Below the pieces are notes generated by a model, which was given only the letters and a program-made list of their open reading frames with translations, searched no databases and was not told the origin of the DNA. The position numbers were made by a program, and so were the translations under genes. 64,000 nucleotides of DNA from Fragilariopsis cylindrus CCMP1102 (lineage: Eukaryota; Bacillariophyta; Bacillariophyceae; Bacillariales; Bacillariaceae): positions 1 to 64,000 of the forward strand of contig FMBT01000333.1 of NCBI GenBank assembly GCA_900095095.1, in the 5' to 3' direction. Of this stretch, positions 26,471 through 64,000 are shown in pieces; the first letter of the stretch is position 1; each line of letters begins with the position of its first letter.

Positions 26471-26942
26471 ATGAAGTTATCTGTGGCTTGTATCAGTTCG
26501 TTGCTGACTACTCCTACAACCGTCGTTACAGTTACTGCTAGGTTATCGATAACGAATAATGATGATAACCACAGTAATAATAATGAGCAGCACAAACAAT
26601 ACCAATATAACCACCCAACAGTAGCCACCACTACTTACAAAACACTTGCGGATCGTCTTCAGGTCCTTTACCAACCAAACAAAATTCGTAATAACATCGA
26701 CGATGATGACACCTACAAGGATGCGGACAACCATAGTAGTAGGATGGAGAAAGACAAAGGAACAACTACTGAAGTTGCTGCTGCTAATTTTGGCAACAAC
26801 AACAACAACAAGGAAGAATGTGTTCCTCCTGTCACTATTAGTAAGACGACTAGCAGCAAACTACTTGATTCTGGTAATCTTCCATTATCATCCTGCTCCT
26901 CCTCTTCAAAGAAGAAGCAGATTTGCATCCACAACAAGAACG

Positions 26943-26985
<43 letters not shown>

Positions 26986-37039: not shown

Positions 37040-39724
37040 ATGCAGTTTTCTTTTGCGTGTGTTAGTTCATTGCTTGTAGTACCTATCGTTGGTGTTACCG
37101 CTACTACTACTAATAGATTACGGGTAATGAATCACGATGACAGTAATAATGAGCATCACGATAATGATAATGATAAACAAAATCAAGCAGCAACAACTAC
37201 TTTCAAGAAACTTGCTGATCGTCTTGATGCACTCTATCAACCAAACAAAATTCGTAACAACAATAGGAATATCTATGATGATACAGATACGGATGCTGAT
37301 TCGGATGCTAATGCTGTCACAGACGTCACGGACGACAACAACAACAAGATGAAGACTATTACTACTGCTACTCGTGCAGCAGTAGTATCATCATCTAATG
37401 AGGATGATCCTAAGGAAGAAGAATGTGTCCCTCCTATCACTATTAGTAAAACTAATAAACTTGATTTTGGTAATCTTCCATCATCCTCCTGCTCGTCGTC
37501 CTCGTCCTCCTCCTCCTCAAAGAAGAAGAAGAACCAGATTTGTATCAACATTAACAACAACAAGAACAACAACGTTAACAACAACGTTGACAGTAACAAC
37601 AACAATACCAAGGAATCTTTTTCTTTTTCTTCATCTATTGAGAAGAAAGAGAACAAGATTACTGGAGTTTGTACTGATATCAATGATATTCCACATACGT
37701 ATTGGGAATTCAATGATGATAGAAGTATTACTACTACTACTACTAGTAGTACTTCTTCTGACAATAGCATTCCAGATTCTTATTGGGAGGATACTGTTTT
37801 GACTACTGATACTACTACTATTTCTACTTCTACTGGCATTGAAGAAGAAGAAGAAGAAAGTTTTGAACACCATGAACTACAAAGTATTGCATACTTTGAT
37901 GATCATCATCGTAATCTTCAAGAACCCGAATCTTGTTATGACTACTGCTCTGAATTTTTGGAACGTCCTGATGTCTCTAATTATACAGAAAATGGGTACA
38001 ACAGCTTCGAAGAAGTTGTCCAATCATGTTTAGATTTAGAAGATAAAGGCAAAACATTGAATGCTTCATGTACATATGGTACAGATCCAATTAGTTGCTG
38101 GAATACTTCAGGGGTTACTAATATGACCTCAGCATTTGAGAAACAAAAAAAATTCAACCAACCCTTACAGTGTTGGGATACATCCTCCGTCACAACTATG
38201 GAGGGCATGTTCTACTATGCAGAGAAATTTAATCAAGGACTTAATTCTTGGGATACCAGCAATGTTGAAAGTATGGTTAATATGTTTAGTGGAGCAGATT
38301 CTTTTGCAAAATCTATTGGTAATTGGACTACATCAAAAGTAACATCGATGTTTTCCATGTTTGAATTTGCAACTTCTTTCAATACTGATATAAGTGATTG
38401 GGATACTGGCAATGTTGATTCTTTTTCCTACATGTTTGGTAATGCACGAAGCTTCAATGCTCCTATTGGTTCATGGGACACTGAAAAAGCAACGAACATG
38501 ACAGGCATGTTCTTTTACGCTGATAAGTTCAACCAAGAAATTTCTGAATGGAACACAGGAGCCGTAACTTCAATGTTTGCAACATTCTATGCTGCTACTA
38601 TTTTCAACCAAGATCTTTCTGAATGGAAAACAGGAAAAGCGACATCTATGTATAGTATGTTTGAGTATGCAGAAAATTTCAACTCACCTATTGATAGTTG
38701 GGACATTTCAAGTGTAACAAGTATTGAAAACATGTTCTCTGCAGCATATGCTTTCAACTCACCCGTTGGTTCCTGGAAAACAGCAGAAGTATATTCAATG
38801 TATGGTACATTCTATGAAGCTACTTCTTTCGATCAGCCTATTGAAGATTGGGACGTCAGTAAAGTTACATATATGGAGTCTATGTTCTATAAAGCAAAGG
38901 TTTTTAACCAGCCTTTAGATAAATGGGAGGTTGGAAATGTAAACACCATGGAATATATGTTTGATACGGCTTTAAAGTAAGTATTTCAAACAAAAAATAT
39001 ATACGTATTTGTCCTTGGCATGTATTCCATATTCTGTTCTTCTGGATTTGGTTTGTATTCTTACCCATTCATTTAATTTTTCTCCACCAGATTCAATCAA
39101 TGTCTCTCCTCATGGGCAGGAAAGACTCCTAGTAAAGTGAAAACAGAAGAAATGTTGCGGAAGACTTCTTGTCCAAATGAAGTTAAAGATGGTACTCCAT
39201 CACCTGATCAAGGGCCATGGTGTCAGGGTGGTCGCGTGGATGATCCCGACGCCAAGTTTGGAAGTAAGGAGAAGAATTGCAAACAACTCCTTGAGAAGAA
39301 GAGTGGAAACAAGTTGAGAAAACAATGCAAAAAAGAAGGTGTAGAAGATGCTTGCCCATCTTTTTGTAGTAGTTCTACATGTGTTGTGCTTGATCTTTGT
39401 GCTGATACAACTAAAAAATTAAAACTGGAAGGTAGAGGAAACACGAAATGCAAAAAAATTAAAGATCAAGAAGATCCAGAATGTGAAAAAATTGTTAAAA
39501 AAACGGATGGTTTACCAGTAAAAAATTTCTGTCCTACAGCATGCAAACTCAATGGTGCTGCTGATACAACTAAAAAATTAAAACTGGAAGGTGGAGGAAA
39601 CACGAAATGCAAAAATATTAAAGATCAAGATCCAAAATGTGAAAAAATTGTTAAAAAAACGGATGATTCATCAGTAAAAAATTTCTGTCCTACAGCATGC
39701 AAACTCAATGGTTGTACTTCTTAA
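37040..39724 (+). CDS. Secreted DUF285 (BspA-like) repeat protein with ShKT-like Cys-rich C-terminus
   Basis: Two exons, 37040-38976 and 39091-39724. The GTAAGT...CACCAG intron keeps the frame, and the join restores the FNQCLSSWAGK motif found uninterrupted in the 26471 paralogue. 856 residues. Signal peptide (MQFSFACVSSLLVVPIVGVTA), a linker shared with the paralogue (KKLADRLDALYQPNKIRNN, EEECVPPITISKT, CTDINDIP), and nine or ten DUF285 units (residues about 353-665, e.g. FNSPIDSWDISSVTSIENMF). The closing GPWCQGG follows. The C-terminus differs from the paralogue: it has three six-Cys-like segments (CKQLLEKK...KQCKKE...ACPSFC; twice KCK-IKDQ-DP-CEKIVKKTD...FCPTAC) resembling the ShKT-type modules common in diatom secreted proteins. 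A surface-protein role is inferred. Confidence 0.85.
39402..39714 (+). repeat. Near-identical tandem duplication of one Cys-rich module
   Basis: GCTGATACAACTAAAAAATT begins at 39402 and again at 39561. Both copies run through AAATTTCTGTCCTACAGCAT and CAAACTCAATGG with only a handful of substitutions and one codon indel. The duplicated unit is about 159 bp, so the last two Cys modules of the protein are a recent duplication. Confidence 0.9.
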
Positions 39725-43450: not shown

Positions 43451-46400
43451 ATGAAACCTACTATCATTGCTATTCGACATTTCTTGTGTGCTGCTGCTGC
43501 CGGAGCAGCAGCGACCATCGTTACGACTACTGCTACGACTACTGCTACTGCTACTGTTAGTAGCAGTGCTACTACATTCGCTTCAGTAGTAGCAGTAGAA
43601 GAACAACAACATCACAATAGTAGTAATAGTAGGGAAGAACAAGAACGTGAACAAGAACGTGAACGAGAACGTGAACGTGAACGTGAACATCGTACTAGTT
43701 CGGGTGGTTTGTGGATACCACTAGGTGGTGAGACAACAACAACAGGAGACAGTAACAGTAACGCATCTTTCCAGGATCATCAATATTATCGTGGAGGAGG
43801 AACAGAGGGTCTTCGTAATAGTAATAGTCATAGTCCGATTCGAAACGGACGACCACAGCCACATTCCGAACAACTATTACAACCACCACCACCACAGCAA
43901 CGTTGTCATCCTGATTTAGGTGCATTATCTTGTCCCAAACAGGAGGAATCATGTCAGCCAGCAAGTCCTACTACTACTAGAAGATGACACGACAATTAAT
44001 AATATTTGGTATTGTACGAAAAATAATGGTATTAGTAATGAAGTAACTGGTGCATAGTTGATGACGAAACGACGACGACGACGGCGACGACAATGACGAA
44101 AATATGACAGGAGACAAAGGAGGAACAGGAACAACAACGAGAGGTTGGCAACAGCAAGAATAACGATAACGATAACGATGACGGTGAAGAACAAGAGGAA
44201 TTAACGGGATTAGAATTTATCCGTGATCGTCGTAATAGTAGACGACGACTACTTCAACAACAACAGCAACAACAGCAAAAGGAAGAAGAAGAAGAAGAAG
44301 AAATTCGATTTTTACAACTCGTGATGACGGATATACTGAGGAGGATGAGAATCCTCCACCACAGGGTCCAAATTATAATGCTTGTTCGGACTCTATGATA
44401 TAATTATTATTCACAGTATATACTCCATCGGGATGGGATCGATGTGTTGTGACAAATATCAAAATACTTTACCACAGCAAACCTTCTCGTCTATATTAAT
44501 AATAATATTAATTATGATGGCAATGATGATAATGATGATATTAATCTCTTTTTAAATTATTGTTTCAATATTAATAAATATTATTGTTCCAATAATTATG
44601 AGAATAATAATAATGGTGATTCGGATTAATAAACCAGTGATTATGATGCCTGTTTATGTTCGACGTATCAGAACAACGTAGATAATTTTCCAGAGACAAT
44701 AACTAAAGAAGCGAATTTTTGTACCAATTTACCACAACGGTATTGTGAATTTTATTATCCGGATACTATTACTGACAATGACAATGACAATTTTTTAATG
44801 GAGCGAGCTGAATGTTTATGTGATAAATTTAATTATCAATCCTTTTGTGATATTATCAAACACACATTACCAACACGTAAACAACACGTAAACCAACGAG
44901 GAAACCACCAGAAACCAACAAAATCACCTACACGTAAACCAACAAAAGCACCTACATCAAAACCTACAAAGAATCCAACACGTAACCAACAATTGGTCCA
45001 TCCAATCAACCTACTGTAAGTATAAATTCTATTTTATATTGTTGCTATTTCTGTTTTTGATTTTTTTTGTGCTTGTATACTGTATACTTTATATATTCCT
45101 AACATCCATCCATCCATCCATCCTCTATCTATCAATCCATAATTTCATTCTTAATACAAATACCAATACAAATATAGCCTCGTCCAACTAAAAATCCAAC
45201 ATCGAAGCCAACACAATCACCTACTAATAAACCTTCACGGTATATCAACACCAAATCCAACATCGAATCCTACTGCTACTACTACCGTAAAAGAAGTAGA
45301 AGTAGAAGTAGAAACAGAAACAGAAGCGGTATTCCTACCACCGGTAAGAGACCATTAAGACCATTATTACCAGGACAAGAACAAGAGCAACAAGCTGTTT
45401 TCATTCCAAGTAATCCAGTAGTAGTAGATGGAACTGGTAGTAATGGTAGTAGTGACGGCGTAGTCGTTGTAGAATCATCAACAGTTGATTATAGTTATGC
45501 ATTACCAGGTCAAGAACAAGTAAATAGGATTCCAGTTCTTGGAGGACGTCCTGTTCTACTACCAGTGGTAGTGGTAGTTTTAATGTGGTGGTAGCAATGG
45601 TGGTGGCAGTCTAACAATAGCAAAGAATTTTGATACACAACCTCAATATCAACACAACAACCTCGTCCATATCGAACACAATATGTACCGGCTGGACCTG
45701 GTAATCAATTCCAACAATCGGATTATATTATGCCTCAAACACGACCTACATTATTGCAACAACAACAAGTCCAACAACAAGTACGACCTGCGGTAGTACC
45801 ACAATCACGACCAGTTGTTGGTGCTACTACTACTACTGTACTGCTACTGCTTCTAGTTATGCTACTATAATAGTACTGAACAAGGTGGATCTTGCGAAAT
45901 GATTTAAATCTATTATTACTGTATTACCGACCGGACTATGGTACTGGTACGACGATGCTACGATCATCATCATCATCGACATTACGTTCATCTCCACTAC
46001 TATAATGATACAAACTCATTTGCATCAACTCGTGAATCACAACGAGCTAATCATAATGGCGATAATAGTAATAATAGTAATGATGATGATAACGATGACG
46101 GGGGTCAACGAAGAGATTTACGATATATTGATCCAAATAATCTTATTATGACTCGACGTCCGATTGCAGCCAACACCGTACCTGCTAATCCTGCTAATGA
46201 TTCATCGGATGTAAAACAACGACCGATTGATATAGTAGATAAATTTATGATGACATCACCTTCGTTACCAACTACTACTACAACAGCGACAGCGACAGCG
46301 ACAAACGATGCATCACCACCTGATGCACTGACAGGTATTGATTTTGGTGATGGTGAAAAGTATGTTCCTATCCATAAAGTACAGGAGCAATACCAACAAC

Positions 46401-46849
46401 AACAGCAGCAGCAGCAGCAGCAACAACAAGAAGAAGAAGAAGCAGATAATGTATTTCAACGACCAATGGAAGGACAGCAACAACAACAACTTCCTATTAT
46501 GCCACGTGAAGCGCCTGTTATTACTGAGGCACTTCCAGGAATTGGTGAAAATGCAAAAGTTGTTCCTATCAGCGAAGTTACGCAATTAGGACAACAGCAA
46601 CAGCAGCAGCAGCAACAAGAACAGCAGCAACAAGAACAGCAGCAACAAGAACAATATAATGGTAATTATGATTTTAGAGAAAAAGTGGATGTTGAATCGA
46701 AACAAAATGAGGTAATTGGACAACAACAAGATGATGAAAAATTGATACAGCAACAACCACCATCTCTTCCTCTAGATTTTTCTATGAATAAAGTGGGTAG
46801 ACCAGGATTTGGTTCAGCATTTACTACTGGTACTGCTGGTGGACTATAA
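43451..46849 (+). pseudogene. Decayed secreted protein: Cys domain, PT-rich repeats, Gln-rich C-terminus
   Basis: Collinear protein-like segments run through alternating frames. 43451-43987 has an ATG, a signal-like Ala/Thr-rich N-terminus, an acidic/basic ER repeat (REREREREREH) and RCHPDLGALSCPKQEESCQ. Acidic and Gln-rich pieces follow around 44180-44400 (DDGYTEEDENPPPQGPNYN in another frame). Next is a Cys segment at about 44720-44870 (FCTNLPQRYCEFYYPD, ECLCDKFNYQSFCD) running into PTKSPTRKPTKAPTSKPTK (about 44920-44980). A probable GTAAGT donor lies at 45015 and more PT repeats at about 45180-45230. Finally there is a 303-codon open frame at 45938-46849 with poly-Gln and MPREAPVITEALPGIGENAK. 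At least five frame changes or stops separate the segments, far more than introns can explain. The ancestor resembled a wall-associated PT-repeat protein (inference). Confidence 0.55.
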
Positions 46850-47443
46850 GAAAATAAAGAATCGAAAATATTCGTATAGTTTCTGCATATTATTACACTG
46901 TACACTATTATATATAGATAATTGATGCATTTATTATAAACTCAAAAATTTAATATCTGATGAATTTTACCTTGCAAATACCTATTATACTTAGCTTCTC
47001 AATAAACGGTCGATCCGACACGACACTCCTTATTTAAAATGTCACTAGAATACAATCTATTAATACTAATCCTCCCGTTTTATAATCTTGCGTTATATTA
47101 TAGCGAATGCATTCGTTTCGTGTTGACAATTACAGTGTTTCTAGAACTACTACAACCGTCAGCTCGTTACTTTGTCTAAGCTCGATATCATTCCGCTTTT
47201 TCGCCGTTCAATGAGCGCACTTTACTATATACGCGGCTGCTGACCATCCTATCGGATAGACAGCAGGTATTGTTACGTCAATTATTTTTTTCCTTCGAAG
47301 CCTTACATTTGTTATGAAACATGCAGTAGCGAGAAGAATGAAATGAATCTTGACAAGAAGATATTGTGAGAGCGTAGACAACAAACTGACTCCGTTGGGC
47401 CATCAATTACTGGTTCATTGACAACACCATGGTTGTCAAACAA

Positions 47444-47483
<40 letters not shown>

Positions 47484-47751
47484 CATATAAAAATACTGTA
47501 AGCACACACCATCTCGCTTTTATACCGAATTCTAATTGATTCTGCAAAACACGATCGGTCAGTAAAATAGAACTCAATGTTTTGGATTTTTCAATATACA
47601 AGCACTAACATTATTTAATGTACTTTTATTATCATCTTGACGAGTACTTTAGTTGAATCTGTTATTACAGTACAATTGTAGAACATGTTCAGCACATTAA
47701 CTAAAATCGTATAGATTTAATAAGTGGTGTACTTAAATTTAATTATTTAAG
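46850..47751. other. Intergenic with (CA)n run
   Basis: No gene supported. A (CA)n microsatellite lies at about 47446-47478. A TTATTTAAG just before 47752 could be a splice acceptor for the HMG-box exon. Confidence 0.45.
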
Positions 47752-48401
47752 CTCGTAAATATCATCCCTCGTTTTGGAAGAAGCGGTATTATAAGGATCC
47801 ATTAGCACCGAAAATACCTCGATCAGCATTCCTTTCATTTTCAAATTCAAATCGATCAAAGGTTAAGTCAGAAAATGAAGATTCTACTTATGCTGAAATA
47901 ACAGGAATATTAGCAACTATGTGGAAAGAAACTTGCCCTCGTGAAGAAAGGAGAAAATACATTGACGAAGAATTAAGACTAAGACAGGATTATAGAATTG
48001 AAATGCATAAACAAGATGCATTCCTTACAGAAGAAGCATCCACACTCAAACGACCGCCATCAGCACTCATTTCGATTACAGAGTCAAATCGATCATGGAA
48101 AATGCATAAACTAAATGAATTTGATACATCAAGAGATCAACGTGAAAATGAAGCAATCGTATCAGCATCTGCAGGATCAGGCAATCATACGATATCGTTA
48201 TACCAGCGGATCGTAAGTAATAACTCTTTGTATACGGCTGCTACTACACTATGCACAACTACCAAGTATATCACCAATATTCCCAGTGCTAAAACCACAT
48301 CAAAGACGAATATCATTCGCCTCATCGCATGGGCAACTGTAACACGTGCAGCAGGTTTAGGTTTAGGTACATGCACATGTGCAGGTGCAGCAGGTACATG
48401 A
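47752..48401 (+). CDS. HMG-box protein, 3' part only (possible gene fragment)
   Basis: The frame read from just after a TTAAG possible acceptor encodes a typical HMG-box: DPLAPKIPRSAFLSFSNSN (helix 1 with the usual Pro and Phe), RSKVKSENEDSTYAEITGIL (helix 2), then MWKETCPREERRKYIDEE and LRLRQDYRIEM (helix 3). HMG boxes bend DNA in chromatin proteins and transcription factors. After the box, the remaining about 110 residues are low-complexity Ser/Thr/Ala and do not resemble a conserved tail. An in-frame TAA at 47748 precedes the box, and I find no 5' exon with an ATG. It may be the last exon of a spliced gene or a truncated copy. The only internal ATG (47919) lies inside helix 2/3 and would not give a functional box. 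Confidence 0.55.
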
Positions 48402-49160
48402 GGAGTAGAATTAGACCGAATATTGTCACTCACTCTGTAGATCATGCAGGTCCATTATCAAAAAATCCATCCTAATTATCATCGTCTTTATTGTCGTTTA
48501 TTGTACAAAACAATCAAACTTCCTGTTGATTCATTCGATTGATTCTTGCTTTTGATTCGATTCAGTCGTGTTTAAGTTCATTCCCACATGACATACTGTC
48601 ACTCAATCACGCAACGACATCCCGTTATGAATTTCTGGTCGCGCTTACGCATAGATCTAATATTTAAATTTAAAAAAGATATCAACATTTATTTATTTCC
48701 CTCCTCACATTTTATTTTATCGTACACTGTATGACAGCCATCGTATATTTCGAGAATAGATAAAACGGTCGGTTTTTTCTTCTTTAGTTTAGTGTTACAT
48801 TACAATATTAGTACTGTAGAGTAGGCTTATTGATGGATGCAACGGAGGGAATGAATGAATCGAGAATTTAGCTACTGTATAATACGAATAAACGTACCGC
48901 CATATTGAAAAGGAAGTGAAAGTGAAGTGATTTGAATCGACTACTACCGTAAAACCAATTCGCAAACAATAAAGTAAGTAAGTGATTTTGCTGGATTGAT
49001 GGATGCTCCAAACTATACCAAACCAAACAACAACGATCACTTACTAGATCGATCGATCGAATTCGATTCGATTCCACAGAATTCAGATTTGATTTTCATT
49101 CCTTTCTTTTTTCCTTACAACAATAATTGTACACACGATAAATTTCAAGTACAGTATACA
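48402..49160. other. Intergenic, 5' region of the sulfatase fusion gene
   Basis: AT-rich. The frame of the downstream gene is open back to 48996 with an ATG at 48999, which is an alternative start. Nothing else recognised. Confidence 0.4.
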
Positions 49161-52100
49161 ATGATGATGACGCACTACTACACGACTACGACTACAACCA
49201 CAACGACAATACGACGATCATTATGTCAGCAGCAGCAGCAACATCGTCGTCAGCAGCAGCAGCGTAGAAGGAAACGTTTTTTATTATTATCAACAGGAGT
49301 AGTAGTAATAGTTTCGGTATTGCCTTTTATTCTTCTCTTAATGATGTCAGTAACAGCTGCAGCTGCTTCTGCTACTGATTCTGCTAATACTACAGACAAC
49401 ACGTACGACAATGATAATGATAATGCCGACATTATCCTCTCCACACCGGTACCGGAAAATATCAGTCAATCATTATTCCAACCACCACCAAAGCAGCAGT
49501 TGCAAAAGCAACAGCAGCGTAATAATAGTCAGCAACAAAGACGAATAGTACAACAACCTAACAAGCAACAACACCAACAACAAGAATACAACAACAACAA
49601 CAATTATAAAGCATTTATCTCATTAGAAGAATTACAAAATGCTGTAGATATTGTATTAGAATATCGTTCGACAGGTCATCGTCCTAGTTTTACTTCAAGT
49701 AGTAATAATAATAACAAAAAGAAACAACAAGCTGATGATGTTATTATCAGTAGCAGTTCTTCTTCGTTGTTGTCGTCGTCGTCTTCTTCTACTTTATTAT
49801 CATCTACATCTACAACGATCAATGACATTAATGATTGGTATGGACCAATCGAACTATGGAATGTCTCATTACTCACCGATTTTCACAGATTATTTAATAT
49901 CAAACGCAATCCACACTATGTTGGTAACTATAATTCCACCTATGATTTAGATTTAAGTTTATGGTCCATCGGTGGTGATACTTCAACCAATAATATTATA
50001 TTCGCTGATATGTTTTATGGTTGTACTTACATGAATTTTAATGTTGGATTATGGAATACATCGAAAGTTAGTCAATTTCAAGGGATGTTTGAATTAACGA
50101 CTAAATTTCAAGGTATAGGGTTAGAACATTGGGATGTATCCTCTGGTAAAATGTTCATGTCCATGTTTTCAAGTGCTACAGGATTATTATTAAATAATAA
50201 TTTAGATTTATCGAATTGGAAACCAGGATTAGCAGTATATCAAAATCAAAAACAATCACAGTCACAGTCACAGTCCCGCCAACTAATATCATTCAAGAAT
50301 ATGTTTCGTGATTCATCTTATAGTGGTAATCTATGCAATTGGAAACAAACTCTAGATCCATCGAAAGTGGATGTGAATATTGAAGTTGAGGGTATGTTTT
50401 CTGGTAGTCATTGTACCAATCAAAATGATCCAACTTTTATTATGACAGAAACAGGAACCGGTGGTATGAATAAAGATTTTATAAAGAAATGGGATCCAAC
50501 AACGTCATTTTGTAGTGATTCTTGTGGAAATATTGATGAGAGTGAGAGTGTTGTTCACTGCAGTGACTACAATGGGGGTGGTAGTACTGCTGCGAAGAAT
50601 GGCACGCTGACAGGAACAGCTGCAGCTGCTTCTGGGATGGGCACAAAAACGGGAGCTGCTGCAGGGACTACTTCGAATAATGATGGCAGTTTTCCAGTTA
50701 CAGTTACAGGCTCCTATACAGGTACAACTACAACTACTACTCCCATCACCGAAGAATCATCTACTTCGAATAATGATGGCAGTTTTCCAACAGCAATTAA
50801 CGGACGACATGAGGGAACACACCCCACAGTTATAGGCTCCAATACAGGTACAACTACAACTCCCATGACTGAATCATCAACCTCGTCAACAACAGCGTTC
50901 GATGAAGATAATAATCACAATGATAGTAGCAATACTACCACTGGCAGTCACAGCAATAATAGTAATGCTAAAGATGATAATAATAGTAACAGTAATTATT
51001 CTCAAGAACAAGAACAAGATAATGGCTCCTCTGATTCTTCGAATTCAAATTCAAAATTTCAAAAACCAAATATATTATTGATAATGACCGATCAACAACG
51101 ATTTGATACCATACGATATATACAAGATACATTACGTCGATATGATCCCTATTACAAGATTCAGACACCAAATCTAGATCTTTTACTTCAAAGTGGTGTT
51201 TATTTTAAAAATGCTTATTGTCAATGTCCAGTCTGTGGTCCATCACGTACCTCATTACGAACAGGATGTACTATTGAACGAACTGGTATACAGCATAATG
51301 ATTTAATCACAGAATATAATTCAATGAATAATGGTCAACAAAAAACAAAACAACGTGTGGAACAACTACAATCCATTGATGAAATATTAGTGGATTCATT
51401 AGGATATAATAATAGTGGGAATCATTATTATGGTAAATTTCATATGCCGGATGTATTAGCGAAAAGTATTACTACAAATGATTATGATTATGTGACAAAA
51501 GAACATTATTTTAAACTTGATAGTAATGGGCAAAAATTACGTCGATATCTACAACATTCGGCATCCTTAGGTGAAATACAATCGTTACCAGTCACAACCG
51601 AATCAATGTTGGAGGGTGAACAACTCGAGACATATTCAGATCAACCCTATTATCCAATTGATTTAGATACAAGATCACGGTATTCATCAATCACAAATAC
51701 ACCATTGAAACGATCCGAAGGATTTGAATCCTATGAAATAAGTCAGTCCAATCAAATGGGTGTATATGCACATCCCTATAATTATACATCCACATTTTAT
51801 ACAGGTGATATTGCCAACAAGGCATTAAAAAAATTATTACTAAATCAAAAACAACAACAGCAACAAGATGGTGGTGGTGGTGGTGATAATTTTGCGTCGT
51901 CTGCAGTAGTACCACCATTATTATTTGATCCATGGTTCTTAACAGTATCATTCCATAGGTAAGTTATCCATCATACAAGCAAAGCATTAAGTGCTGATCC
52001 ATCCGAGTCGAGTGGTTCTCATACTAGCCAGTACAGTAGCTATTGTTCCTAGTCTCGCACACGTGGGTTCCGAACTACTTCCTCCGTGCAACGCTTAATT

Positions 52101-54218
52101 CACGCGCGCTATCGTTTGAAAATTTCCAATCAACATGAAATTAAAAAACTCTTCGTGCTTTAGCGCGTCTTAATAGCGTTGCCCGGAGGAAGTACAGACA
52201 GAATTGGATTCCTCTATAATAGCTGTTCGTATGATTGTCTTGATCTATACCCAAAATGCCTTCTGTTTGTTTCTCTCATCCTCTCTCTTTCTATCCTCCA
52301 CTATCTATCCCGATACTGTACTGTTGGTTCTTACTGTACCGTACGTTGCATCTTGTCTGATACGCAGTCCACATCCACCAATGATCCCAAGTTGGGAATA
52401 CTTGGAAAAATATTGGAGGAATCAACATAATTTATTTACACCTCAAAATAAGAATGAGAATACATATATGAATGAATTTGATAATAGGAATAGTAGAAAT
52501 CAAAATGAGAGTACTTTTGATCATATGAGTGATACATCCTACTCCACAATAACAAGAAAAATACCAGAATATGCAAGTGATGAATTGATAAAAGAATGGA
52601 CAGCAATATATTATGCATTGATTGAAGAAATTGATACACAAGTTGGTTTACTATTGAATACGTTAGATAGTAATGATTCTGCTTATGATGATGACGGTTA
52701 TATCAAAAACAATACATTAATTGTTTTTACATCCGATCATGGTAAGTACCGTAAGCCTCCTCTTTATTTTTATTCGTCGTTTATTTATTGTTATAATATA
52801 AACACTCACAACATAATAATACTGTATACACTATCCCTCATATTTTTTCATTTATATATCCTTTAGGTGAAATGTTAGGTAGTCATGGAAAACGTGATAA
52901 GAATAATTTTTTTGAAGAATCATCACGTGTACCATTATTTATGTCCTATCCATCTCACATACAAGCAGGTACAGAAATCAATGATATGGTGGGACATATT
53001 GATGTCTTTGCTACCATATTAGATTATGCAACATCCTCCGGGAATAGTAATAATAATGATATCAATAATAATAATAATAATAGTGATGGTAAATCATTAC
53101 GACCATTAATTGAAAATCGTGAGGTGAATGAACAGTATGATAATAATGTTGCTATTGTCGAATGGGATTTTAGAAAACCGATCGCAGCAGCAGAATTGAG
53201 TCAACATCAACGACCAGCAGAAGGCAGTAGTGATCCATTCTATTTAGCTGACAGGACAATCGATGAACGACCCGCATACCTTGTACGGAAAGGGTCCTAT
53301 AAATTAATGATCCAAAAATTAGCATCGTCCAAAGAATTAGATATGATGTATAATTTAGATTCGGATCCTTTTGAGGTACATAATTTAATTGGGAATAAGT
53401 ATGGACATACAATTGATCGTCCAACAGTATCAAAAGCAGAACATTTACGTTGTCTACTGTTAGACTGGATGATTCGTCATAATAATAACAGTAATAATAA
53501 TAACAATCAACATAAGGAAAATTATTATAGTGATCCGTTCTCTAATTTTGGACAAGGTACCGGTGATATAAACGAGATTCGGACAAGGCAATCATGGAAA
53601 CAAATTGGGTTTTGGGTTTCCGATACACACCTGAATTTTAATTCCATTGCATGGAACAATTATGCCAATGATAATGCTAATGCTAATGCTAATCTCCAAC
53701 CTTCGGAAGAAACATTGCTAGCTGTTGATGATGATTCTGTTATGATATCAAGAGGAGAAATAATGTCGTTAATAATGTCCAAACCTCCAGCAGCAGCAGT
53801 AGAATGGGAAAACCCCATAACTTCACCGACACCAACAATAGGTATCCGTCATGAATATTTATATTTAGGTTCCAGAGAAGAATACGCCGTGTATGATCTG
53901 ATATCTGTTAAAATTGTTGGAGAAGATTCTATCTTCTTTCGAACAACTAACGACGCACAAGTAGTCGTAGACGACGAAAGTGCTGTACCACTAACACTAC
54001 CGATACGAATACAATATATGGATTGTTTTTATCTTCGTATATCATTTTACGTTGATGAAACAAATATTAAAGAATATCTTGAAAGGAAGAAGAATAGGAA
54101 GACAACAGCAATTCTAATGAATACATTTTTAGTTTTATCAATAACGGGCGGACGAACACAAGAAGAAGAAGTTTCTGTTGATGATATATGGATTGAATTA
54201 CATGTCGATGATTCGTAA
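49161..54218 (+). CDS. Membrane-anchored DUF285-like / type I sulfatase fusion
   Basis: Exons 49161-51958, 52368-52741 and 52867-54218. Both introns are GT-AG (GTAAGT donors) and the joins restore conserved motifs (SFH/SPHPP and SDHG/EMLGSHG). 1507 residues. I start at the ATG triplet at 49161 because a basic patch and signal anchor follow directly (RRRKR, then FLLLSTGVVVIVSVLPFILLLMM, residues about 40-62). Residues about 226-395 are a degenerate DUF285-like domain (GLWNTSKVSQFQGMFELTTKF, HWDVSSGKMFMSMF), followed by a Thr/Ser/Gly/Asn linker. The sulfatase domain starts at about 635: PNILLIMTDQQRFD (metal-binding Asp), CGPSR (692-696, Cys converted to formylglycine), GKFH (758-761), and SDHGE (1055-1059, metal and active site). 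All key residues are present, so it is probably active on sulfate esters, perhaps cell-surface polysaccharide. Confidence 0.85.
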
Positions 54219-54491
54219 TTCATTCGGCGCACACACCTAGTTTCGAGACCCGGCTTCATGCCCCTTGTTGAGGTATGAAGGTGTGCTTGTTATTGAGTTT
54301 GTGATTGAATAAAATTATGTGATTTTTTTAAATTATTTTCGAATTGATTTCGGGGGAGACAAAGGAGGGAGACAAACATCTAATAATTTTAGTATTTATT
54401 TAAGAGGGGGAAAAGAATTAAAGCTAACATAGCACCTATTATTCTATTTTTTATTTTTTTTTCTGTGCGTGTAGGATTTTCATATTGACGA

Positions 54492-57400
54492 TTATAAAAA
54501 ATGTTGCTGCTGTTGTTGTTGTAATTGTGTTTGGCGTCTCATATTACGAAAATCATGTGTAATTTTATCATGAGCCTTTTCACGTGTTGCTATTAACCAT
54601 GGTCCTGCATCAAATAATAACGATAATTGTTGCTGTTCATATTGCTGTTGTTTGTCATTGTCGTCGTTCTGGTTGTTATCATTTCTATGATTGTTGTCCT
54701 CGGAATGATTCGTTCTGGCTTCTTGCGCTGTATCTTTAGAAGCATTATCACTACTAGTGGCAGTAATCTTCTTTTTCTTTTCTTTATATAGAAACCGAGC
54801 GCCATTACCACCACCACCAACAACGTTGTTAGCAGTTGCAGCAGCAGCAACAGATGATGATGATGATGATGGTGATAATGGTGTTGATGGTGTGGATGTT
54901 TTTCCTCCCAAATGTTTTTTAATACCTAATAATTCATTTAACATTCGATCCACAACCCTCATCCGTTCAAAGCGATTTGCTAATTCATACTGTTCACGTT
55001 CATTATTTAATGATAATTTAAATGCTATATTACCAGGATGAAATTTATTCCACTGTCTACGTACAATAAATAGCAGTAGTAGTTAGTAGATATCGATTTT
55101 TAAGAAAAAGAAAAAATGAGAATTGAGTTAAGGTGAGTTGAGTTGAGTACTGTAGGTGAGTAATTCCATTCGATACAGTACTGTATATATGCATGTGTGC
55201 GTGTATGTCTTGTAATTACTTTACTTTACTTACCCTTTCCCCATGATGATATCTTTTGATTTTGGTCTTAAAACTTCAATGATACCATCAGTATTAATTC
55301 TATCAGGACCATCAGTGTTATTGACGTCATAATCAGTAGGATATATCGATGACATCCTAGTGGCAGGTACAGCAGCAGCAGCTGTCGCCATTATCATTCC
55401 ATTATTCTCGTTATTCGTGATATTGATGTCAGTCAATGCACCTCCACCTCCATCACCGCCATCATCATCATCATTACCATCATTAAAGAACGACGTGGAC
55501 ATATCGTTGTTGTCATCATCTTCTTTTAATAATTCCGGAAATAATGAGAATGACATATTTGATATAGAACTATTAGTAGTAGTACTAATACTTGCTGTTA
55601 AACTCATCCATAATGATTCTTCGATGGCTGCTCCATTGTTTAATTGCTTCTGTTGATGTTGCTGTTGCTGTTGATCGCTGCTCATCACGATGCTATTATT
55701 GTTATTATCTAGATCTACATTATTATCAATATTGTAGTTCGAGTCAACATTATTATCAATGTTATTAATTACATCTTGTTTTTCGCGTTCATCAATTGCG
55801 TCTAATATAGCTTGATGGAATTCTACATTAATTTTACCTGTATTTTCATTTATCGGTATTGTTTGACGTGGTATTCTATATACAGTAGTCAATAAGATCG
55901 AGAAAAGAAATGAAAGGAAGATTGCAAAAAGTAAGGAAAATGTGAGTGAAAAGTACGACAGCAGAACAGCAGAGCAGTAGAACAGAGGACCATCTTCCGC
56001 TCGGCAAGATAAAAAAATTGTTTGGAAAAAATAAAATTGCCAGACCCCCATTTTCGCTTAATGATTTTTCATTAAGCAATCATTGAGCAAAACCGCGCGC
56101 GAGTAAGGGTGCCAGGGGAATAATTGTAATGTTTAATGAAATTTTTAACTCGCCGAGCGGAAGCTGGTCCAGTAGAAAAGCAGAACAGCGTAGCAGCATA
56201 ATAGACAAACGTACCCAAATGTCATTAATATATATAACAATTCCTTATGTGGATTAAAGGTAATATTGTTGCTGTTACTGCTATGCTCAGTAGGATTAGC
56301 ATAATGACATCGGAATCGTGCAGCACTAAATGATGACATATGACTTGCTAATTTTTCAAACTGTATATGTAACAATGGATGATCATAACAAAAATGACGT
56401 GCAACACCACGTAAATGTCCTGACATACCAACCTTAACTATTTGACCAAGTAATGGATCAGAATTTTTTATATATTCACCAAAAATACCATTGCTATCTA
56501 TATTCCGATCATTTTGTGGTGTAAATTCAGTTAATGCAGAATAACCAATAACAACCATTCCTGCCTTTTGAATGGATTCATCTCTGGACCAGACATTACA
56601 ACAATATAGGTAGGCTCTTGATACTAACGATGGATCAATTTTATAATCGGATAGTGCTTTCCCAAATATACATACTATGGCACGTTTGGCTCGATCTCTC
56701 ATCCCACATAATTGGAAAAAACCACTTTGTTTCCATAGTCTTAAATCTTGTACCGAAAAATCAGATAACCGTAAATCTCTACCTAAACAGTCATAATTAT
56801 TACTATCAACATTGTTGTTATTGTTGTTGTTACTGTTACTGTTACTGTTGCTACTATTGCTACTGTTGTTACGGTTGTTACGGTTGTTACGAATGTTATT
56901 ATTATTATAACCATTATCACAAAAGAATTCTTTTTTTAAATCAAAAAAACGTATCATTCGTTCAGCACCTAATTTAGTATCATATCGATCAGCTCTTAAA
57001 AATTTAATTCTTTGATTGTATACATAATTTGAATCTTGTTGTTTTGCCATATGCAATCCAATACCAATAGTTTTTTTCAAACCATCAACCTTTTTTTCCT
57101 TTTCATGTTCTATTAAAAGTTCATTTACGTAATGATCTAATTCGTCTAGAAGTAGTTCAAGTTTCGCAGGATCTTTTTCAATATTATTTTGTATATGTAT
57201 ATCATTTGTGGATGCATCAAAGTATTCATCATCAAGTGGTATACCATGAAGATCAAATGTAGCATTTTCACGATCACGGACACTCATTTTATTAAGACGT
57301 TGTGTCAATGATGAAATTTCATTTGCAGCAGTACTTGCCGCTGCTGTTGTTCCTGTTCCTTGACTATTATTGTTACTTGTTCTATTACTTTTATACTCAT

Positions 57401-57791
57401 CGTCGTCTTCCGTTAATGTACCATCTTCTTGATCATCACAACGGTCGTGTCTTCTTTTGAGGTTAGTAGTATTCTTATTAGTATTCTTATTAGTATTATT
57501 ATTAGTATCATTATTAGTATTATTGTAGTTCGAATCTGTATCAACACTACTACCTCCTCCTCCTCCTCCTCCTCCATCACCACCACCACAACTACCATTC
57601 TCATCGGAAACGATTGACGTAAACGATGAGGAACCTCTATAAGCAGCAGCAGGGATGGCAGCGGGAACAGCAGCAGCAGTATCGTCAATTATTGTTGTTG
57701 TTGTTGTTGTTGTTGTAGCAGTCGACATGAAGTACTTATTGCTACTGTTATTTCTGTCATCGTCATTGTCGTCATTCATATTCCTCATCAT
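54492..57791 (-). CDS. Diatom-type CRAL-TRIO-like / DUF6824 protein
   Basis: Minus strand, three exons: 57791-56215, 55875-55234, 55056-54492. Both introns are GT-AG and the joins keep phase (LLYILMTFG/IPRQTIPI and DIIMGKG/QWNKFHPGN). 927 residues. The N-terminal 160 are Asn/Asp/Thr/Ala-rich. Then comes a domain I recognise as CRAL-TRIO-like in diatoms: SVRDRENATFDLHGI, IKFLRADRYDTKLGAERMI, FFDLKKEFF, LWKQSGFFQL, RDRAKRAIV, then FNPHKELLYILMTFGIPRQT. A disordered linker leads to the DUF6824-type motif SKDIIMGKGQWNKFHPGN (about 732-749) and NNEREQYELANRFERMRVV. The family is highly expanded in diatoms (from memory). Lipid binding for the first part and DNA-related roles for the second are suggested, not proven. 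It is convergent with the sulfatase gene (273 bp apart). Intron 1 contains a 184-bp MITE. Confidence 0.85.
55987..56170. mobile_element. 184-bp MITE with 19-bp terminal inverted repeats, in intron 1 of the 54492-57791 gene
   Basis: The left end is GGACCATCTTCCGCTCGGC (55987-56005). The right end GCCGAGCGGAAGCTGGTCC (56152-56170) is its reverse complement with one mismatch. There is no ORF. Flanks AGTAGAACAGA (55976-55986) and AGTAGAAAAGC (56171-56181) match at 9 of 11 positions. This could be a long target-site duplication of the Mutator kind, although the flank is rich in AGCAGAACAG words. The same left end occurs at 20146. Confidence 0.85.
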
Positions 57792-58668
57792 TATTTAAAT
57801 TAATTTATTGGATGGATGGATGAATGAATGAATGGATGGACGTGGCTATTATGATGCGTTATTAGCGTGGCTTTTTTGTCTATAACAAAAAGTAGGAAAA
57901 GAGAAAGAAGAGACAAAAAAAACCGCTGGTGAGACATACAACACAAATATCGAAATAAAAAGGAATCAATCAACTAGAACTAAAACTCCAAACTCTAACC
58001 TCCGACTAACTATTCTTCGCAAGTATGGATTGTCTTTGTCTTTTTGTATGTTGAGGTTGAGGTTGAGAGTTGAGGTGGAATGGAATGGGAAAACGGATTT
58101 CAATTCAATTCAATTCATTTCAATTCTATTCAATTCAAATTCCATCTAAAGTATTGTTACTGGTGAGTGAGGAAACCGATGACGTGACGTCCTCTCTACG
58201 GACGTCGTTGCGACTAGCGATGTTGGGGATCAGCAAGCTCGTCGACTGACTTCATTCGGACAGAGCTCCTATCATGCGGAGGACCGAACACGAGAATAGT
58301 AGCTGTATGGTCGGCCTCCTTTGTTGATCACAACGACTTGACTTTTAGAGTTGAGGACGCCTAGCCTTGGCCAGATGATAGTTGATATATATCCTTATGT
58401 ATGGCCATTGATTGTTTTTTAAGTCCATATTCCTTCTTCTCGTTATTATTGTGTGGTGTGTTTTTTGTAGTAGTGTCGTGTTGCCGATCAACACATAGCC
58501 TTTTTCCTCCTGCCTCTATGTCTTTTCTCTCTCTCTATCTATCTATCTCTCTATCTATCTCTATTTCTCAATGCGTTATCTTGATATTATTTGATTTGAT
58601 TTGATTTGATTTGATTTGATTTGATCATGATCATGATCTTGACGCTCCGCTGCTTTAATTATTACCTG

Positions 58669-58700
<32 letters not shown>

Positions 58701-59790
58701 TTTCGTCTTCTCTTTACAATTGTACTCGCTCGATCGCACTTTTCTCTCTCTCTCTCTCTCTCTTTCTCCCTTTCTATTTACTGACTTTGACTATTGTGTG
58801 TTGTGTTGTGTTGTGTTGTCTAGTGATGATCGTATGTTATTCAGAATATACTAGTACGAAAGAACACAATAAACTAAGCAACGAAATAAGGTTCCTACTG
58901 TAAATAATAAACGCTTGTACAGTATCAGTGTATATTGACAATAATGCCCATACAGTTATGATCAGAATAGATGATGATGTTCACTAGAGATAGAGAGTTC
59001 TCTTGCTTGACTTTGATGTCAATAACAATTACACTTCAAGTATTATTGCGATAAGTAGGATAGCGGCGACTTTTAAGTGTTGTAAGAATCTTGTGTCAGG
59101 CAGATCTGTTCTCTTTGATAGCGCACCAAAATTAAAAAAAATAAGCAAAAAACAATAATGAATGACGACGCACACGCATCGCACGCATAACGATTTTTAT
59201 GATTTGGATTGATTCAACGCATAAGAACAACTTAATTAACTGCTTGCGTGTATTCATATGTTAAAAATAAATCATGCAAAAATTTGCTAATACAAAAACT
59301 AAATAATGCCCAAATTTTACTAGTATTTGTTAGTGTATTATATAATAATAACTTTAGCATCAAGTATATACACCTAAAAGGTCATTTTTTTGGAAAAATA
59401 AACGATGAAGTTTACAATTGACTTATTGGATGGAGAATTGTTGTATTCCTTAGTCTCTTAAGCCTACTGGTATCTCATAATGTAGGCTCACACACTACAC
59501 AGCACACATCAAATAACCCCCCAAAAATGGCCCATCTGCAGTGTTTTGTGGACATACAGTACACTCAAAAAGGTGAATCATCCCCAAATATATGGAGGGG
59601 ATACACCATATATACCAAAGAGAACTTACTTTTGGTGCTTTGTGTGTGATGATCCAGCTTAGGTATGCACAAAAATGGAAAATCCTGTTTTAGGGTCTAA
59701 ATGGCCCATTTTGTGGTTAATGCGGCCCAACAACCTCATAACCTCCATAGAAACCTAAGCATTATGAGGGCCTTGTAGGTATGAGTATAT
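57792..59790. other. Intergenic with simple repeats
   Basis: ATTCAATTCA (about 58097-58140), ATTTG (about 58589-58625), CTTT (about 58675-58700) and CT (about 58742-58766) runs. No gene supported. Confidence 0.55.
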
Positions 59791-59794
59791 TTGA

Positions 59795-60270
59795 TGCTAG
59801 TACACCTGACCCATCTGGTGTTGTCCTCTGCAACCCCTTTTATATGAGATATTTTGTGGTTCATTTCTGATCAAAAATCATGTTATTTTTGTGCATGCAA
59901 CAACAGCAAAATGAATTTCATTCCTCAACCACAGGAATAGAAAAGTGGTGGGAGGCAAACACAATGTTCTAGTACACTATGTGAATGCATGTGCACCCAA
60001 CCCATCTGGTATTGTCTTCTGCAACCCTTTCAAATGAGATATTTTGTATTCATAATATCTGATCAAAAATCATGCTGTTGTTTTTGTGCCTTCCACACCA
60101 GCAAAATGAATTTCATTCTGCAACCACAGGAACAGAAAAGTTGTAGGAGGCAAATACAATGTTCTCATACTCTATGTGGATGCTAGTGCACTCAACCCAT
60201 CTGGTGTTGTCTTCTGCAACCCTTTCAAATGAGATATTTTGTATTCATTTCTGATCAAAAATTGTATGGA
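59795..60270 (+). repeat. Tandem repeat, unit 191-195 bp, about 2.5 copies
   Basis: CCATCTGGT(G/A)(T)TGTC begins at 59811, 60002 and 60197. Each copy continues with CTGCAACCC, ATGAGATATTTTGT, CTGATCAAAAAT, CAGCAAAATGAATTTCATTC, CAACCACAGGAA and GGAGGCAAA(C/T)ACAATGTTCT. Frames are closed, so it looks satellite-like rather than coding. Confidence 0.9.
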
Positions 60271-60756
60271 CCAAAATACATACATTTCATTATTTAAACA
60301 TACCACCAGATAATTTAGAACACTGATACAGTAATACTACCTGGAGGAATGGCGTGCACCCAGAGATGGATCAATATCAGGATCATTCAGATTATCTAAA
60401 CTACACATAAGTAAAAAGATAAGACCACTACTACGCTAGGGAGGAGGCATGTAAAAGGAAGAGGCTACAGGAGACAGTCCAAAATGGAAATGCGAGAACC
60501 ATATGAGAATCTGTTTTGCTTTAATGGGATTTGCAATATTTGCCCAGCCTATTTGGTATGTATATTATTACTTCTTTCTTTCTTTTTGTCTGATCTGCTA
60601 ACTAATGGGAAATTTCAAAAACTGATGCAATGAATTAGATTAGTGGACAGAGGATCTAAAGACTACTTGCATATTGGGTTGTGTGGGCTACAGGTACACT
60701 GATGTATCTTTAGCTATAAGAAGTGTCCTTATTATTAGGTTTTGCACATATGTACT

Positions 60757-60794
<38 letters not shown>

Positions 60795-61938
60795 CAGGGA
60801 TTATCATCAAGGAGAAAGGATCCCTGCCAACTAACTGTTGTATGTGTGTGTGTTTATTCCAGGTATATTTCTTCATATACACCAAGTAGAAGTAGTTCCA
60901 GGTATATTTCTTTATATACACCAAGTAGAAGTAGCACCCCCACTGATCTAGCTCTTGGACCAGATCCAATCCACAAAGTTTTCAATTTGAGAGGGGGGAT
61001 TCCTACATACAGCACTTTTTCCTTTGTGTTGGCACACATGGACAGACTTGTTCCACTCCCTTTTGTATTGCGTCTCAACCTACACAGTAACTAGGTTGAT
61101 TTGGGTAGGACCGCACCAAAAGGAAGATCCTACTCTCTATCAATGTATAAGCGGACTAGTAGGAATGCAGAGTTAACAATAATTATAGAAATTTATTCAT
61201 CTGAAGCCAGCCTACCCCCAATGGAGCAAAGAAAATCAATAAGACAATGTTGGGTGTAGAATAATACCTATTAAGGTGGTATTGCATGTGCAGGAATGTG
61301 TAGGAGGTATGTGTGAATGAATAATTATCAGACCAAAAAGTTTGTGTACTGTTTCATTGACATACTTCAATTGCAGTACTATGTTATATTACTATATAGA
61401 AAAGTACTAGTAACAAATAACGATGTGGGAGGACGATTGGTGGGATATATAACAACAATTATTGTATTACGTATGTAGGAAGAAGGATATTATACTATGT
61501 AGGTATTAATTAATGGACATGATGTTTTTGTTTTCTTGGTATCATTTTTTGTTTTGTTTTTGTTTTGTTTGATCTTACTATTACATTCATTCTTTTTTCT
61601 GATGTATTGTATTGTTCTTGGTTTTGTTTGATTACTTGCACTGCATTGATTGGACTGGAAGGTGATATTATGGACGGACGGATGGATGTATGGATGTATG
61701 GATGTATGGATGTATGGATGTATGGATGTATGGTGTTACAAAATGTAATGAGAGGACCGGACCGGACCGGAACCGCGACTGTGTGGGGAATTGTTTGTTG
61801 ACGGGAAACATACGATTCCCCCCTCACGCGTACATTGCGTCCTCGTCCTTGTTGTGTCTTTGCTTGTTTGAACTGTACTGTACACCACGTTATGGTACGT
61901 TACGTTACACCCCCTCTCGGCTCTTTTAATTACTATTT
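60271..61938. other. Intergenic with short tandem repeats
   Basis: (CA)n at about 60763-60791, a 39-bp dimer at 60857-60934 and an 8-bp (GGATGTAT)n array at about 61680-61733. No gene supported. Confidence 0.55.
60857..60934 (+). repeat. 39-bp tandem dimer
   Basis: Two adjacent copies of a unit starting TTCCAGGTATATTTCTT and ending CACCAAGTAGAAGTAG, differing at one base. Confidence 0.95.
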
Positions 61939-63537
61939 TTATCTAAATTGTTCTTCTAATATTTCATCAGCAATATCTTTAACATCTTGATCAATAGATT
62001 CTGATGCAACAACATTGCCCAATGATGCAACAACACCTAAACGTTTACGTTCCAATTTTGATAAATGTTTACATACTTTTTGTAATACAAAACAACCATC
62101 ACGATTCATACCATGATGTTTTGGAAATGATCTCATAATATTATTTGTAACAGATACAATTTGTTTGCCATTTGCTGTTGAATTACTAGTAAATGTTTCC
62201 TTTGATGCAACAGCTGTTGTTGATACTAAACATTTAAGGACGGATGCAATTAATGATTCATATACTTTTTCTGCTTTTTTATTAAATGAAGTAGAACCAT
62301 CCTTAGTAGTGATAGTAGTAGATTTTCCTACAACTTTCATTTTATATTCTTCAATTAAAATAGGTATTGCATCACATAATGTTGTAAGGATTTTACCAGG
62401 TGCTGTCTTATCAACACCAATGACATGTGGAATCAACAACGCTAATACTTCCATTGAATGACGTGCTGTATCAAGTTTTTGATATGATATATCATCATCA
62501 ACTTCTGTAACAATGCCTTGATTATTCGGTGTCATACAAAGCATCATAGGATCACCAGCATTGAATGCTGCTGAACATGGATTCATTAATACATCCTCAG
62601 CAATTTCTTGATTCGTCTTGAGCATATGTTTAAATGCCTTCCACATACCAGATTCTGCATCATTCTTATCACCAGCAGTTTCACCACCGAATGCAGATGA
62701 AGAAAAAGAAGGTTCGATAGGTACTTTCTTCGTTTTTTTACCTTTTGGTACACTTTTTGGTAATGCATGATATTGGAATGTACGTAGCATTAAATTAACA
62801 CCACCAATATCAACGATACATTTACCAATTTTTGTTCTCATTTTAGATAATGCTTTACTCTCGTAAATTGTTGCTGATGCGCCTTGGAGTGGTTTACACA
62901 ATGTTTCCATTAACCAAAATGCAGGTAAGATACATTTTGGATCAGCTATATGATCTTCTACAAAGAATAATACCTGTTGCAAGCCACCAACATCAGCAAA
63001 ATGACTCCCAAATGCAACATTTTGTTTTAATGACCAGACGTGGAGTGTTTCTAATGCAATTTCTGAATCAGTTTCGGTATACGTTTCATCATCAACTATA
63101 CGACATAATACTTTGGATAGTTCACGTGCTGATGGTAACGGACGACGTTCAATTGGTATAATATCACTACCATTTTCTTCATCTGTAGTACGTGCACGTT
63201 TTGTTTGTGGGGATTGAGTAGTGCCTGTCTTTTTGTTGTTACTGGCAGCGTTAGCGTTACGGACAGTTAATGCCGAGGTAAAAATATTACTTGAATCATT
63301 ATTATTATTACGACTTGATAATTTCGTTGTATTCATTATACGAGGTGTGGCAGTTGATGATGCAACACTGATCGAGTCCGCTAAAGCAGGAGTCATGGTA
63401 GTACCAGTATCTTTCTTGTTATTGATTGTTGCCGTTGATGCCGTCGACGATGCTGCTGGTGATATGATTGATACGGTTGCTACCTTCTTTTTTAAATATG
63501 AGCTGTTAGTAGATGCTTTTTTCTTCTTGAATTGCAT
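61939..63537 (-). CDS. Conserved-looking helical (possibly ARM-like) protein, function unknown
   Basis: 532 codons, ATG at 63535-63537, intronless. Residues 1-115 are Lys/Ser/Thr/Ala/Asn-rich with basic clusters (MQFKKKKAS, TKRARTTDEE) that could be a nuclear localisation segment. From about 120 to the end it is a balanced, mostly helical sequence with repeated amphipathic helices: SARELSKVLCRIVDDE, ALETLHVWSLKQNVAFG, VGGLQQVLFFVEDHI, LPAFWLMETLCKPLQ, IGGVNLMLRTFQYH, then RHSMEVLALLIPHVIG, ILTTLCDAIPILIEEYK and VLQKVCKHLSKLERKRLG. Phrases such as VGGLQQVL and IGGVNLMLRTF resemble the G-x-x-x-L-L turns of armadillo/HEAT repeats, so an ARM-like scaffold is plausible. I do not recognise the family. 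Intracellular and probably nuclear (inference). Confidence 0.75.
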   Translation of the reverse strand: MQFKKKKASTNSSYLKKKVATVSIISPAASSTASTATINNKKDTGTTMTPALADSISVASSTATPRIMNTTKLSSRNNNNDSSNIFTSALTVRNANAASNNKKTGTTQSPQTKRARTTDEENGSDIIPIERRPLPSARELSKVLCRIVDDETYTETDSEIALETLHVWSLKQNVAFGSHFADVGGLQQVLFFVEDHIADPKCILPAFWLMETLCKPLQGASATIYESKALSKMRTKIGKCIVDIGGVNLMLRTFQYHALPKSVPKGKKTKKVPIEPSFSSSAFGGETAGDKNDAESGMWKAFKHMLKTNQEIAEDVLMNPCSAAFNAGDPMMLCMTPNNQGIVTEVDDDISYQKLDTARHSMEVLALLIPHVIGVDKTAPGKILTTLCDAIPILIEEYKMKVVGKSTTITTKDGSTSFNKKAEKVYESLIASVLKCLVSTTAVASKETFTSNSTANGKQIVSVTNNIMRSFPKHHGMNRDGCFVLQKVCKHLSKLERKRLGVVASLGNVVASESIDQDVKDIADEILEEQFR

Positions 63538-64000
63538 TTGGAGTACGGTTTTTTTTTATGACGATCTCTGAAAAGAAAAAGGGATCTCAGGCTAAGCTAA
63601 CGTTTAATTCTCGCCTAAAACTACTTGTCAAATGGTAATGAGATGGCTGAAGAGATGAATGAATAGCAGCGCATATATAAGATGAATGACGATATTGTGA
63701 GGATGACAATAGTATGCTGCGGCGGTTGAAACTGAATTCTTGTATCATATAAATCAGTAAATAAAAAGATATGAAAAACAAATACATACATATTTTTGTT
63801 CCGTTATGGTCGCGCAGTTTCACCTATGTAATCATACTAATGTTGTTGTACAGTATCACACTTTCATTTCAACCCAGAAAACCGTTAGGATATCTTGCAC
63901 GCGAGCTTGCGAAACTATGAGATCGTCGCGCACTCCGCCATTGACTGTGTGTGTATTCCAGATTTTCGATTTACTTCGGGGGAGGAAGTTGATGAAAGAG
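63538..64000. other. Upstream region of the 61939 gene to window end
   Basis: Poly-T/A tracts and AT-rich sequence. No further gene visible before the window edge. Confidence 0.4.

Follow-up and report, generated by a model that had tools for sequence, protein, structure and literature searches.

DUF285 repeats and sulfatases each form a well-known protein family, and domain shuffling is common. To our knowledge, how diatoms edit their own sulfated glycans has been little studied. The DUF285 family is described as abundant in diatoms in the excerpts available of two papers (PMC11992049, PMC2996958). One of these, a survey of Tara Oceans diatom transcripts, calls it enigmatic in the available part; of the 100 leading Pfam families there, DUF285 alone is a domain without a known function (PMC11992049). 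An extract of the other paper reports PARCEL repeats, for the most part equivalent to DUF285, from P. tricornutum and not from T. pseudonana (PMC2996958). On the enzyme side, some P. tricornutum sulfatases have an additional C-terminal part according to the accessible text of a survey of algal sulfatases from 2015, and the word DUF285 is absent from that text (PMC4659905). Sulfated glycans are exuded by diatoms, as stated in an excerpted study of the bacterial enzyme PbSulf1-GH195, in which a sulfatase is joined to another domain and which acts on sulfated diatom mannan (PMC13063451). The gene described here is similar in that its sulfatase also has a partner domain. The likeness is one of description only, and, unlike our gene, PbSulf1-GH195 is bacterial and its partner is a glycoside hydrolase (PMC13063451, in the same excerpt). 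Our literature search found no text containing both "sulfatase" and "DUF285"; as far as such a text search reaches, the earlier remark that this architecture had not been described held.

The window is the whole stretch of DNA that was analysed, 64,000 nucleotides long. A protein of 1507 residues was predicted from three exons at 49161-54218 (+), with the ATG at 49161 and the stop at 54218. Its chain begins with a hydrophobic signal anchor, which is followed by a divergent DUF285 module and, beyond a linker rich in Ser and Thr, by a complete S1-type sulfatase and a C-terminal domain. The features are as follows.

26465-30688: another DUF285 gene of the window
36968-39724: another DUF285 gene of the window
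49161..51958, +: exon 1, residues 1-932 plus two bases of codon 933, a stop-free frame (N-terminus, signal anchor, DUF285 module, linker, first half of the sulfatase)
49275..49376, +: hydrophobic signal anchor, residues about 39-72 (Kyte-Doolittle)
49611..50525, +: DUF285 (BspA-like) module, residues about 151-455 (PF03382)
50526..51056, +: Ser/Thr-rich linker, residues 456-632
51057..51958, +: N-terminal half of the sulfatase, with TDQQR, CGPSR (residue 692) and GKFH (PF00884 match at 51066-51446)
51959..52367, +: intron 1, 409 nt, GT-AG
52368..52741, +: exon 2, SPHPP to SDHG
52742..52866, +: intron 2, 125 nt, GT-AG
52867..54218, +: exon 3, EMLGSHGKRDK, SGSH_C part of the sulfatase, C-terminal domain and stop
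53493..54215, +: C-terminal domain, residues about 1267-1507, partly common to the paralog on contig C504

The location and exons given in the sequence-only reading were borne out by the predicted frame, the GT-AG introns and the intact motifs DQQR, CGPSR, GKFH, SPHPP and SDHGE. It had described two short introns. Both introns were found, and "short" fits the second (125 nt) and not the first, which at 409 nt carries a MITE-like repeat. This element lies at 52076-52194 and has 20-nt inverted arms. In the genome, arms in plus and minus orientation form pairs spanning 204-372 bp at no fewer than 23 places among the matches listed. A hidden gene in intron 1 was ruled out, as its content is this dispersed inverted-repeat element. 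Neither a tRNA scan nor Rfam at gathering thresholds returned a match in the window.

On the whole protein, PF00884 (Sulfatase) matched in two stretches with an E value of 1.9e-25 (90.3 bits against a cut-off of 25), and PF16347 (SGSH_C) matched from residue 1062 above its curated cut-off (E 5.4e-15). The formylglycine signature C-x-P/A-x-R is present as CGPSR at residues 692-696. Further motifs start at residues 643 (TDQQ), 644 (DQQR), 758 (GKFH), 933 (SPHPP) and 1055 (SDHGE). From general knowledge of their catalytic roles, we take TDQQ, GKxH, SPHPP, SDHG and CGPSR to be the S1 active-site motifs. The two-stretch catalytic domain, CxPxR, SDHG and the SGSH_C region are all as in S1 sulfatases, whereas the low-complexity insertions and the extra DUF285 and C-terminal domains are not. 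The nearest named NCBIfam models were PRK13759 (arylsulfatase) and TIGR03417 (choline-sulfatase). The scores were far below their cut-offs (142.7 bits against 481, and 141.1 against 433.45) and, therefore, the enzyme belongs to neither named family. Solved chains matching the sulfatase part numbered 79 distinct sequences at E values up to 1. The best 60 of the 79 are sulfatases or related ester hydrolases, led by one named Sulfatase_S1_30A (E 3.4e-24). No close relatives of the sulfatase were found in the prokaryote and viral collections; a two-sequence alignment of exon 3 used as query retrieved four distant bacterial sulfatases and no viral one. For the C-terminal domain, Pfam returned nothing, NCBIfam nothing significant, and none of the PDB matches extended into it.

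The N-terminal module is divergent. PF03382 matched with an E value of 3.2e-18 (66 bits against a curated cut-off of 25; best stretch, residues 281-354), and a local DUF285 repeat HMM also picked the module up. By eye, it consists of about six repeats and a cysteine-bearing end, within outer limits that were likewise drawn by eye. It resembles diatom DUF285/PARCEL/BspA-like proteins (PF03382) in its W-N/D-x-S and M-F repeats and in being preceded by an N-terminal hydrophobic signal. By the standards of this genome the score is low: the whole protein reaches 66 bits, and the best single match elsewhere 136. Unlike the 22 DUF285 frames of the genome that were scanned, which are mostly longer arrays and in many cases Pro/Ser-rich, this module is short and divergent and stands with a catalytic domain. 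Against PDB sequences, the best match reached an E value of 0.39. Outside the module's own two copies, the best match was on contig C674 (E 3.6e-7, 36% identity), ahead of the window neighbour at 38.5 kb (E 3.6e-4). Recent capture of a neighbouring DUF285 gene is thus unsupported.

In principle, the locus could hold two genes, one for DUF285 and another, starting within the linker, for the sulfatase, which only read-through connects here. In-frame ATG codons do occur in the linker at residues 493 and 569, no clear constraint was detected on the linker, and DUF285 and sulfatase are separate at the other loci examined. However, exon 1 (2798 nt) keeps 932 codons free of stops, which happened in none of 2000 first-order Markov sequences (58 stops expected); an open frame by chance was ruled out by this simulation. 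The linker alone was stop-free in 0 of 20,000 such sequences, against 10.2 stops expected. No match to the donor consensus GTRAGT was found in exon 1. Translation from Met493 or Met569 would yield a sulfatase without an ER signal because no other hydrophobic segment precedes the sulfatase, and eukaryotic S1 sulfatases are generally understood to need passage through the ER to meet the formylglycine-generating enzyme (FGE). We regard two genes as the least probable account of the locus.

Our preferred reading, to which we give a probability of about 0.6, is a single gene for a membrane-anchored (type II) or secreted S1 sulfatase, in which DUF285 positions the enzyme along the secretory path or in the wall and the enzyme desulfates the alga's own polysaccharides. 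Kyte-Doolittle windows of 19 residues exceed 1.6 at starts 38-54, the sole such peak in the protein, and the segment is predicted to be either a type II anchor or a long signal peptide. It would lead the chain into the ER, where FGE would convert Cys692 of CGPSR to formylglycine; candidate homologs are encoded in the genome, with PF03781 above its cut-off at three loci that count FGE and the other enzymes of this family together. A putative LRR-like DUF285 solenoid would then stand between membrane and enzyme, followed by the linker (37% Ser+Thr, seven N-glycosylation sequons), which would be flexible. The DUF285 module may place or dock the enzyme in the secretory path or cell wall, and the enzyme would strip sulfate esters from the alga's own sulfated polysaccharides.

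Another possible explanation is that the fusion is real and the DUF285 part is a passive spacer or leftover, carried by a sulfatase that resides in the Golgi or vacuole and whose glycan editing takes place within the cell. Other sulfatases of the genome, L002 and L005 among them, start, by eye, with a hydrophobic anchor and a low-complexity stem and have no DUF285. Type II anchors with stems are, as general knowledge has it, usual in Golgi enzymes. The comparison with a second copy of the gene speaks against a mere spacer, as the DUF285 module proved about as constrained as the enzyme, above what a spacer would be expected to show, whereas the linker does behave as a spacer. Overall, this reading seems rather unlikely.

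This second copy lies on the minus strand of contig C100 (25.8 kb), which is colinear with window positions 45651-64000 at 86-97% identity in the aligned pieces. Domain order is identical and the splice-site bases are kept, and the contig represents either an allele or a homeologous region. The copy of the MITE-like element in its intron 1 is longer by 66 bases. Between the two copies, dN/dS was 0.22 for DUF285 (Fisher p 7e-7), 0.19 for the sulfatase (p 1e-8) and 0.24 for the C-terminal part (p 8e-8). The linker (0.69) and N-terminus (0.81) were not distinguishable from 1. The five parts were compared after 49 gapped codons and one stop codon had been excluded. Since dN/dS was counted in the frame of the window gene, the indels of the C100 copy are treated as errors or as recent. 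The values of 0.22 and 0.19 place DUF285 and sulfatase under constraint in one frame, and both appear, from this comparison, to be under purifying selection. With the open frame and the second copy, this supports the sequence-only reading that one gene encodes both DUF285 and a complete type I sulfatase. The locus seems, on these data, to be a real and unusual combination of two known families in one protein.

As assembled, the C100 copy has frame-breaking indels in its 5′ half, which weakens the case for the fusion. In exon 1, 17 of 27 indels are not multiples of three; 16 of these lie before the sulfatase, and one, a 40-nt deletion, lies inside it. Some cancel out, yet parts of DUF285 and the linker are out of frame. 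None of the eight indels in exon 3 breaks the frame. This could mean that the locus is decaying, with one or both copies becoming pseudogenes and the fusion an evolutionary accident. Frame faults in the C504 paralog described below would point the same way. Against decay, the window copy is intact with all its motifs, and three parts have dN/dS values far below 1. Of 14 indels in four further C100 reading frames, none breaks the frame, while 7 of 13 do so in a fifth frame, the one closest to a contig end. Across the coding stretches compared, the frame-breaking indels are found towards one end of the contig. The pattern fits poor sequence or assembly error near the contig end. The C100 copy may be undergoing real decay; for the locus as a whole, we consider decay very unlikely.

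The nearest sulfatase paralog in the genome is on C504 (82521-85267; L064, 82459-85267). It is 40-56% identical over the sulfatase segments (47% to the exon 3 product) and has part of the C-terminal domain in common with the window gene. No DUF285 was found upstream of it in the 4.5 kb examined. The module was therefore either gained in the window gene or lost in C504, and such enzymes do not need a DUF285 module in general. Unlike the window gene, C504 has no intron at the two positions, and an intron-like gap lies some ten codons past the second of them. Just upstream of the sulfatase, and one base out of register, is a short reading frame that resembles a signal peptide. There is a further frame change as assembled, with one TAA and one TGA within the tabulated matches, and these faults reflect either a pseudogene or assembly errors.

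The rarity of the fusion was assessed in the genome (67.9 Mb in 818 contigs), in which 35 sulfatase match segments and at least 180 DUF285 segments were counted (150 of 195 DUF285 candidates were scored). At 12 other sulfatase loci, with flanks of 1.5 kb for most, no DUF285 was found. The local DUF285 repeat HMM was run on 15 sequences covering 14 sulfatase loci and matched only the window gene and its C100 copy. For about ten further sulfatase loci, coordinates were compared by eye with a list of DUF285 matches whose lowest score, 82 bits, is above that of this module. In the other direction, 22 DUF285 reading frames from the best-match loci and the window were scanned with Pfam; many are cut at locus ends, and two are pieces of the window gene at 37-40 kb. 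DUF285 was matched in 21 of the 22, the PT disordered repeat in eight and fasciclin in one, and no confident enzyme domain was found in these frames. Single matches to a phage family (E 4.8e-6), TGase_elicitor (5.9e-4) and SEFIR (1e-3), in one DUF285 frame each, were distrusted. From these searches, the DUF285-sulfatase fusion looks rare. Among bacteria, the phylum to which a Chitinophagaceae genome belongs was sampled: DUF285 was present in 70 of 395 genomes, and no sulfatase was found within 1.5 kb on each side of DUF285 at 30 loci from those 70. As a control, the sulfatase HMM matched eight of eight control sequences, one of which, the window gene, had also served to train it.

The genome is that of a diatom, as had been presumed. 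Silicon transporter match segments number 27 in it, and at 13297-13902 the window encodes a fucoxanthin-chlorophyll protein that, among solved structures, is closest to fucoxanthin chlorophyll a/c proteins. Two other DUF285 genes had been said to lie nearby, and they were found at 26465-30688 and 36968-39724. By eye, the DUF285 relatives of the genome have signal-peptide-like starts, with Pro/Ser-rich, Lys-rich or, once, fasciclin parts, and from these features they look secreted. Together with the signal anchor, such secreted-looking relatives make the earlier proposal of an enzyme held at the frustule, mucilage or endomembrane a reasonable one. Some DUF285 proteins may have a different role, as an antifreeze likeness suggests; by itself, this likeness would not explain the sulfatase fusion. 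We tentatively suggest, as a possible though not the expected outcome, that one member of the DUF285 family became an enzyme carrier, whose solenoid docks the sulfatase at the wall or a secretory membrane for trimming of the alga's own glycans at a fixed place. If true, this would be direct guidance as to the binding partners of DUF285 proteins. The partner in this natural fusion is an enzyme whose kind of chemistry is known, which offers a handle on DUF285, as the substrate and location of the sulfatase would show where DUF285 modules sit and perhaps what they bind.

Several of the DUF285 relatives have compositions of their own. The gene at 26465-30688 encodes a Pro/Ser-rich stretch of 623 residues (123 PS) together with a tail of 200 residues that is 32% Lys and 12% Ser, which we take to be reminiscent of silaffin-like wall proteins. 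On contig C500, L045 (94-3177) has DUF285 repeats between long Pro/Ser-rich stretches and fasciclin-like sequence, and the one fasciclin match in the Pfam scan was assigned to it by eye. A short basic tail, KKKSKKM, is common to the DUF285 proteins L010, L044, L059 and L063, where it follows a Pro/Thr- or Pro/Ser-rich stretch.
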